NCBI RefSeq assembly: GCF_001907695.1
Contig: NZ_KV880639.1
Location: 74,103 to 138,102 of the forward strand
Reading direction: 5' to 3'
Source: Thalassospira sp. TSL5-1
Lineage (GTDB): Bacteria > Pseudomonadota > Alphaproteobacteria > Rhodospirillales > Thalassospiraceae
DNA length: 64,000 nt
Shown: positions 57,235 to 58,609 of the stretch, one piece after another
How the letters are laid out: each line of letters begins with the position of its first letter
Numbering within the stretch: the stretch's first letter is position 1
Notes under the pieces: model-generated
What the model saw: only the letters and a program-made list of their open reading frames with translations
The model's database searches: none
Told to the model about the DNA's origin: nothing
Made by a program: the position numbers and the translations under genes

Positions 57235-57460
57235 AAAGGATATACTTCCAACCATCCTAATTTAAGGAGTATCGTTTTGCTGCACTCTGGATTTCTGAAC
57301 TGGCGACATACAGGGTCGCTACCAGCGGTAAACAGCACCTTGTCATGCCTTTGCAGAACAATCAGGTATGGGCAATGACGCAACCTGCGGATGGATGGCA
57401 CAGAAATGCAGAGACAATGAATGCGGGATAAGAAGAGTTTTCTGCCAGATTACAGGCAAG

Positions 57461-57487
57461 AAAAAAGCGGCGATAAAAATCGCCGCT
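57461..57487 (-). terminator. Strong orphan minus-strand terminator
   Basis: Perfect nine-pair stem AGCGGCGAT (57466-57474) with ATCGCCGCT (57479-57487), loop AAAA, and six Ts on the minus strand. It follows no recognisable gene; the nearest upstream minus-strand gene ends 440 bases away, which argues for a separate transcript in between. Confidence 0.82.
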
Positions 57488-57654
57488 ATAAGTTTTGGTT
57501 GGGACACGAGCAAACTGCAGAAGATTACGTTGTTCCAGGCGCACCGTAGTGCGCCCCTGCACAGAACAACTGTCCGCCCTTATATATGCAGTTACCGTGC
57601 CAGTTTTTTAAATTTAAAAATTTCGCGGGTTTGCACGGTATAGAGTGGCAATAC
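57461..57654 (-). ncRNA. Candidate structured small RNA (about 190 nt)
   Basis: A predicted transcript from about 57654 (promoter below) to the terminator at 57461. On the minus strand it contains three perfect inverted repeats in order: TACCGTGC/GCACGGTA (57640-57633 with 57600-57593), GGCGCAC/GTGCGCC (57555-57538) around TACG, and the terminator stem. It has no ATG-started ORF and no convincing GTG/TTG ORF with a ribosome site. I do not recognise tmRNA, 6S, SRP or RNase P signatures. Support is structural only; expression is unknown. Confidence 0.45.
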
Positions 57655-57660
57655 CTTAGG

Positions 57661-57714
57661 GGTATATCCATCGATTGTGCAAAATGCAAAAATGATTTTG
57701 CAAAATGCAAAAAT
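57661..57714 (-). promoter_or_regulatory. Promoter with two phased 16-base repeats
   Basis: Minus-strand boxes TTGCAT (57689-57684) and TATACC (57666-57661) are 17 bases apart. The 16-mer TGCAAAATGCAAAAAT occurs twice on the plus strand (57678-57693 and 57699-57714), 21 bases apart, two helical turns. Each carries the dyad TGCA-AAA-TGCA. One copy overlaps the -35 box and the other lies just upstream. A third partial copy, inverted, is at 57815-57825. Confidence 0.5.
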
Positions 57715-57927
57715 AAGTATCCCATATTGCAACATACACGCGTTTATCGGCATCAGATTCACACAGGATACGCATAAACCACTGCAATCCGGGCAATACC
57801 AAGCCACACCAAAATTTGCATTTTGAGGAATCACGGAGATCAGAAATAAGGGAAGCATGTAATTTAGAACATTCAAACCGGATAGGGGTTACCCAAACGG
57901 ATTGGAATTATTCAAAATTACAACAGC
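57715..57927. other. A/T-rich non-coding region
   Basis: No gene can be supported here. A 94-codon minus-strand frame (57592-57876) lacks a ribosome site and family features. It contains the third TTTGCATTTTG copy and is the 3' flank of the leftward hypothetical gene at 57928. Together with 57122-57660 it is the longest gene-free part of the right half of the window. Confidence 0.5.
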
Positions 57928-58479
57928 CTAGCGGAATCTCTTCCGTTTATTGGCTGCGGGTCTATTGCTGAAATTCAGCAACGCAGGAGCATGCTGGATA
58001 ATTTCCTCAAGGATATCGCGTGCCATATCCAAATCGTCCTGCGCACTGTCATCCAAATCGCTTTTAAATCTAGGATCAGACAACATTTTTTCTGCCTCAT
58101 AAAGCGTTCGCAATTCGCTTTGAAACAACTCACGAGAGCCCAATGGCAGAAAGGGCTTGGCACTCATGACAAAAAAGAATTTAAGACTGGTTTTAATCAC
58201 GAGCCGCAGCATCAGCACTTGAAGCTTATGGAACTGTTTCTCCAACTCATCCTTACGCGGATGATTATCCAGCGCCGACAGCCTTTCTGAAAGGATCAGG
58301 GAAAGAGCCTTGAAGTTGTCGACCTGTTCCCGGAAAGGACGATAACGGGTAACATCTGTCGTATCTGCCAGGGCTTCAAGCTCCGCAGCAATCGAAACCA
58401 GAATACGCCCGCGCTTTTCCAACTGCGACAGGAAATGCTCGACTTCTTTTACTTTTTGTCTTTGGCCTGATGAATTCAT
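57928..58479 (-). CDS. Hypothetical protein, helical and charged
   Basis: About 183 aa from ATG 58479 (a TTG at 58500 is an alternative). Predicted to be almost all helix, with heptad-like spacing (VEHFLSQLEKRGRILVSIAAELEALA, in part) and a strongly basic C terminus (NKRKRFR). One moderately hydrophobic stretch (LKFFFVMSAKPFLPL) may be buried or membrane-touching. No family recognised. It lies downstream of clpA on the same strand, 130 bases away, without a clear terminator between, so it may be on the same transcript. Confidence 0.55.
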   Translation of the reverse strand: MNSSGQRQKVKEVEHFLSQLEKRGRILVSIAAELEALADTTDVTRYRPFREQVDNFKALSLILSERLSALDNHPRKDELEKQFHKLQVLMLRLVIKTSLKFFFVMSAKPFLPLGSRELFQSELRTLYEAEKMLSDPRFKSDLDDSAQDDLDMARDILEEIIQHAPALLNFSNRPAANKRKRFR

Positions 58480-58609
58480 AAAAAGTCGAAATAACCTCAA
58501 TTAGAAAAGTATCCAGCCCCGAAACCGAGCTGGATACATTTCAGAATACTATGGCCCACCACGATAGCAAGCAGAACCATGATAAAGGTTCAAATCAGCC
58601 GTAGCTGAT

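Follow-up and report, generated by a model that had tools for sequence, protein, structure and literature searches.

The window analysed here, a stretch of 64,000 nucleotides of the Thalassospira sp. TSL5-1 genome, contains a gene-free interval between a 190-aa gene and a 205-aa gene. Reading along the minus strand from 57732 to 57461, this interval carries a weak enhancer-like site, an exact site, a one-mismatch site, a gap, a sigma-54 promoter and a 115-nt structured stretch. A first-pass annotation of the same DNA had proposed that the minus strand encodes a structured small RNA as a gene of its own, complete with promoter, paired control sites and terminator, and this proposal is now well supported. 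Its connection to LuxO/Qrr-type control had been missed, because the class of the promoter, the role of the paired sites and the length of the transcript were misread. The 190-aa gene (57928-58500, minus strand) lies directly after clpA, is retained at all 25 genus loci and has no match in Pfam or NCBIfam.

A conserved structured RNA gene

The predicted small RNA spans about 115 nt (57461-57576, minus strand), with its start placed 12 nt after the GC of the -12 element and the sequence GGACAG beginning at 57575. Two landmarks within it had already been recognized and are present: the perfect hairpin GGCGCAC-TACG-GTGCGCC, which forms helix 3 (57538-57555, minus strand), and a strong intrinsic terminator composed of an 8-9 bp GC-rich stem followed by T6 (57461-57488, minus strand). 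The T6 is invariant in all 25 rows of an alignment of genus copies. The stretch likewise has no credible open reading frame, as had been noted; the longest frame usually starts with TTG and runs for 13-14 codons, and an ATG is found in one of the 25 copies. Folding of a 126-nt stretch gave -49.5 kcal/mol, with z = -4.49; none of 200 shuffled sequences reached so low an energy.

We examined the distribution of the RNA in three ways. A 260-bp query searched against 41 genomes gave matches in 25, namely the TSL5-1 genome and all 24 congeners, and none in the 16 other genera of the order. In these 25 genomes the gene order is the same: clpA, the 190-aa gene, the RNA, the 205-aa gene and a methyl-accepting chemotaxis gene (MCP). 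A covariance model (R1) built from the 25 aligned copies found the RNA in all 29 genus genomes, each with one strong match (E from 4e-26 to 4e-19); three further matches in the genus were weak (E 0.008-0.06), and one of these lay at this locus on the opposite strand. In a scan of 385 class genomes, R1 matched the two members of the genus and nothing else. Finally, searching named genome contigs for an exact 22-base sequence returned 23 records, of which 22 were from Thalassospira and one was from an unclassified Rhodospirillales MAG.

In the 25-copy alignment, 85 of 115 positions of the RNA are invariant compared to 10 of 115 in the upstream spacer. The stems, on whose conservation in relatives the first-pass annotation had staked its proposal, are retained: the 34 model pairs are paired in 99.5% of cells, sliding the partners lowers this value to 38-50%, and three pairs have changed on both sides (10 cells versus a shuffle mean of 2.9), all figures that are favoured by scoring a structure derived from the same alignment. 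Variation is almost absent from the two long 5' helices, which are accordingly uninformative on pairing. Small-RNA sequencing of nine Thalassospira species (PMC6413936; public reads of the type strains under PRJNA505357) had selected stationary-cell reads of 18-35 nt. Inspection by eye of the tables in the accessible part of that paper, which places most candidates in supplements, revealed no match. A literature search, with most subscription journals and preprints outside its reach, gave no report, among the papers listed, of a LuxO- or sigma-54-controlled small RNA in Thalassospira.

We could not assign the RNA to an Rfam family, nor had the first-pass annotation been able to match it to a known class. 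No Rfam family reached its gathering score anywhere in the window, and the Rfam Qrr model gave no covariance match up to E 10 in 57400-57900. One sub-threshold similarity concerns the promoter. The rpfG RNA motif (RF03023) aligned to 57563-57601 with 20.8 bits against a gathering score of 75.9; the first 30 consensus positions of this family resemble the promoter and start region here and look like a sigma-54 -24/-12 promoter. Since the common part is promoter-like sequence and not RNA, we rejected this family as a match. The RF03023 family may itself include promoter sequence.

A sigma-54 promoter with LuxO-type upstream sites

The sigma-54 consensus is TGGCACG-N4-TTGCA. The sequence TGGCACGGTAACTGCA at 57587-57602 (minus strand) is one base off this consensus and keeps the GG-N10-GC spacing that such promoters require. 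All 25 aligned copies have the corresponding element, [CT]TGGCA[CT][AG]N4[CA]TGC[AT]T, at the same distance, 28 nt upstream of GGACAG. With the promoter at this position, transcription would start near 57576 and yield an RNA of about 115 nt, not the 180-200 nt previously proposed.

The two phased repeats that had been described upstream are present at 57710-57698 and 57689-57677, 21 bp apart on the minus strand. The first, TTGCATTTTGCAA, is an exact match to TTGCAWWWTGCAA, the LuxO upstream activating sequence (UAS) given in the consulted part of PMC10162802, and the second, TTGCATTTTGCAC, has one mismatch. A weaker third site, TTGCAATATGGGA, lies at 57732-57720 (minus strand) and has two mismatches to TTGCA-N3-TGCAA. 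The exact TTGCAWWWTGCAA sequence occurs a single time in the 4.97 Mb genome, at 57710-57698. We counted TTGCA-N3-TGCAA sites within 330 bp upstream of a GTGTCCC landmark in all 25 copies. Each had one or more sites with no more than one mismatch, an exact site being present in 17 of the 25, and two or more with no more than two mismatches. Because the repeats lie 75-96 bp upstream of the sigma-54 promoter, the usual place of activator sites, we interpret them as enhancers and not as the repressor operators of a sigma-70 promoter that they had been taken for.

The locus thus combines the features of a sigma-54-dependent stand-alone sRNA: a promoter, an enhancer, a terminator, a conserved RNA and no open reading frame. 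On this sequence evidence, we consider it very probable that the locus is a stand-alone Thalassospira small RNA gene that is transcribed by sigma-54 RNA polymerase and activated by a LuxO/SypG-type regulator via the TTGCA-N3-TGCAA sites. Both the existence of the gene and its predicted sigma-54/LuxO-type control are well supported.

Three other readings of the locus were weighed against this one. The model originally put forward, in which sigma-70 RNA polymerase makes a 180-200 nt sRNA, constitutively or under repression, from a promoter with an operator pair, drew on TTGCAT-17-TATACC, which can indeed be read in this one genome. However, its -35 hexamer is half of the second repeat, the sequence is present in only 1 of 25 aligned copies, and conservation is poor from there to the sigma-54 element; 13 of 25 copies contain looser sigma-70-like matches, which resemble chance. 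We rejected this promoter on the ground of conservation, and the model as a whole is exceedingly improbable. It is also quite improbable that the stretch is a leader or attenuator of the 205-aa gene (57121-56504): the gene lies on the same strand and the order is kept in 25 of 25 loci, but the invariant T6 of the terminator and the roughly 200-440 nt that separate the terminator from the gene argue for a free RNA, and we saw no competing conserved fold. Membership in the alpha-r8/suhB (MmgR) family, whose members are alphaproteobacterial sRNAs that likewise have a C-rich stretch before the terminator, would account for an Rfam suhB match of 29.3 bits (E 4e-4) at 57452-57519. This score is under the gathering threshold of 41, the match is confined to the 3' end and consists mostly of terminator and C-rich stretch, and the CUCCCU loop of the family is not retained. 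We rejected this candidate on account of its 3'-end-only similarity and regard membership as highly improbable.

A LuxO/SypG-type activator and the class-wide pattern

The TSL5-1 genome encodes 14 proteins in which the sigma-54 interaction domain is full-length; four weaker matches to this domain were other AAA proteins, the ClpA of the window among them. With 14 enhancer-binding proteins to choose from, the activator is assigned by motif and not by binding. The candidate is a LuxO-like protein (G000:C1:788693-790294) with receiver, AAA and Fis-type HTH domains. It scored 636.8 bits against the NCBIfam LuxO model, under the curated cut-off of 800, and 374.7 bits against the next family, NtrC. 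Its best match among solved structures was LuxO (5ep0, E 7e-140). Of 22 HTH positions, 17 are identical to V. cholerae LuxO, compared to 12 for the closest other activator of the genome. Eleven HTH residues of LuxO are needed for binding according to the portion of PMC11407668 available. The LuxO-like protein keeps nine of these eleven; the second activator keeps nine as well, and this test alone does not discriminate between them. A LuxO/SypG-type gene is present in one copy in each of 29 genus genomes, and an hfq gene was found in the TSL5-1 genome.

In the surrounding region (L046 5926-10298; G000:C1:785925-790297), the luxO-like gene has SypA/SypE-like partner-switching genes as neighbours. 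In all 14 congeners fetched, out of 28, genes for a STAS protein and a kinase-REC-SpoIIE phosphatase protein are divergent from luxO. A HisKA-REC-Hpt hybrid kinase was matched downstream of luxO in 10 of the 14 loci, eight over more than 600 residues and two over 101. The order kinase, receiver, SpoIIE phosphatase is that of SypE in the excerpt of PMC3610818 that we consulted. Given a SypA-like STAS protein, a SypE-like domain order and a SypF-like Hpt kinase beside luxO, the input may be a biofilm-type phosphorelay and not an autoinducer. A paper on the spread of LuxO (PMC8895600) makes no mention of Qrr in the part available.

To extend the analysis beyond the genus, we scanned 385 class genomes for a UAS followed, after 75-105 bp, by TGGCA-N7-TGC. 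The 75-105 gap was chosen before the class survey to admit the TSL5-1 site; a 60-90 gap gave no match in that genome. The pattern occurs once in the TSL5-1 genome and in 10 of the 385 genomes, and a reversed control pattern was found in none of the 385. All 10 pattern-bearing genomes fall within a set of 76 that encode a LuxO-type protein (p = 5e-8), defined by a best score of at least 440 bits, a cut picked after seeing a natural gap at 412-448 bits. When all 174 genomes with E <= 1e-100 were counted instead, the association had p = 3e-4. A relaxed version of the pattern matched 7 of 16 Thalassospira genomes, each time at the RNA locus only. In nine other genomes of the order, it gave one match (G029), ahead of a short open reading frame.

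At most class loci with the pattern, the predicted promoter drives a protein gene. Judged by eye from product names, seven loci in other alphaproteobacteria (L062-L065, L068, L070 and L071) have LuxO-type UAS and sigma-54 promoters before genes for polysaccharide enzymes, a PilZ protein or secreted proteins, which hints at a matrix regulon of the LuxO/SypG type in this class. At two further loci, in LuxO-bearing genomes of other alphaproteobacterial families, the UAS and promoter precede a strongly folded, ORF-free stretch. One (L066; G041:C2:132664-132905, minus strand) has a 9-bp perfect outer stem (GUGUCCCUC/GAGGGACAC), folds at -64.8 kcal/mol per 140 nt and lies some 350 nt ahead of a response-regulator gene; a search of 41 genomes, no two of the same genus, found its putative RNA in its own genome only, a sampling that makes this conservation search uninformative. 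The other (L067; G156:C14:18515-18624 and downstream) has two hairpins of 9 and 15 bp and no open reading frame for more than 350 nt, and precedes what appears by eye to be a flagellar-like gene.

These observations bear on the signal to which the RNA would respond. A reading that we regard as evenly balanced places the activator in a syp-like biofilm module, as a SypG-type protein with SypA/SypE/SypF-like partners, so that the RNA would be a biofilm or surface output and not one of cell density; the promoter mechanism would be the same. The genes beside luxO, in 14 of 14 and 10 of 14 loci, and the nature of the genes that follow the other class matches are consistent with this idea. Furthermore, SypG, which is related to LuxO, activates V. 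fischeri qrr1 through the LuxO sites, according to the available text of PMC10162802. Against it, the best family of the activator is LuxO, in a comparison made without a SypG model, and the UAS is the exact LuxO motif and fits the SypG motif (TTCTCANNNTGMDWN) less well. The module also differs from that of V. fischeri in that we identified no syp polysaccharide cluster here and matched the kinase in 10 of 14 loci only.

A proposed Qrr-like circuit in Thalassospira

From its sequence, the RNA is best described as a putative sigma-54-dependent trans-acting RNA that would work like a Qrr and is not a Qrr. It resembles the Qrr RNAs of Vibrionaceae in its sigma-54 promoter, upstream TTGCAWWWTGCAA sites (PMC10162802, in the part seen) and LuxO-type activator, and in being a stand-alone structured RNA of about 100 nt with a terminator in a genome that has hfq. 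By contrast, it lacks a match to the Rfam Qrr model, belongs to a different bacterial class and is present in one copy.

In the circuit that we propose, a hybrid sensor kinase would phosphorylate the LuxO/SypG-type response regulator via an Hpt domain. The phosphorylated activator would bind the TTGCA-N3-TGCAA sites about 75-130 bp upstream, loop the DNA and open the -24/-12 promoter, and the structured RNA so made would end at its own terminator. We infer that the RNA, which is probably Hfq-dependent, would then pair in trans with target mRNAs through the invariant stretch CUUCUGCAGUUUGCUCGUGUCCCAACC. A negative feedback on luxO mRNA can be added to this scheme as a speculative step.

Qrr RNAs are expressed at low cell density and pair, with the help of Hfq, with luxR/hapR, aphA and luxO mRNAs; in Vibrio, Qrr thereby feeds back on luxO mRNA. 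We investigated pairing of the Thalassospira RNA with a single candidate target, the start of the luxO mRNA. In 22 of the 29 genus genomes, the sequence UCGUGUCCC (57501-57509, minus strand), invariant in the 25 copies, is complementary to the luxO ribosome-binding region and can form nine contiguous pairs (G-U allowed) with GGGA[CT][AG][CT]GA at -17. This site has six sequence variants and pairing is kept in all of them; by comparison, 3 of 69 gene starts of the TSL5-1 genome reach a run of at least nine pairs. The luxO 5'-region of some species contains a GGGACACGA site. However, the pairing site is absent from the TSL5-1 genome and its nearest relatives (G000, G023, G425, G011 and G426) and from G020 and G024. 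Moreover, duplex energies are near shuffle level (z 0 to -3, mostly above -2), and the 22 pairing genomes are related and therefore represent few independent events. Feedback on luxO is rather unlikely on this evidence, and we treat the suggestive pairing as a lead and not as a result.

Small-RNA regulation has a textbook example in the LuxO-Qrr circuit. In the cited literature, as far as the portions available go, it is described for Vibrionaceae only. That the same enhancer code and activator type appear to drive an unrelated, genus-wide RNA in an alphaproteobacterium suggests that a LuxO-type activator plus a small RNA is a reusable circuit. More tentatively, alphaproteobacteria may run LuxO/SypG-to-small-RNA circuits of their own, with Thalassospira and the loci in G041 (L066) and G156 (L067) as cases, in which the activator type and enhancer code would be common with Vibrio and the RNAs of separate origin. 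Having a single gene for the activator and a single gene for the RNA in each genome, Thalassospira would offer a simple system in which to test such a circuit.
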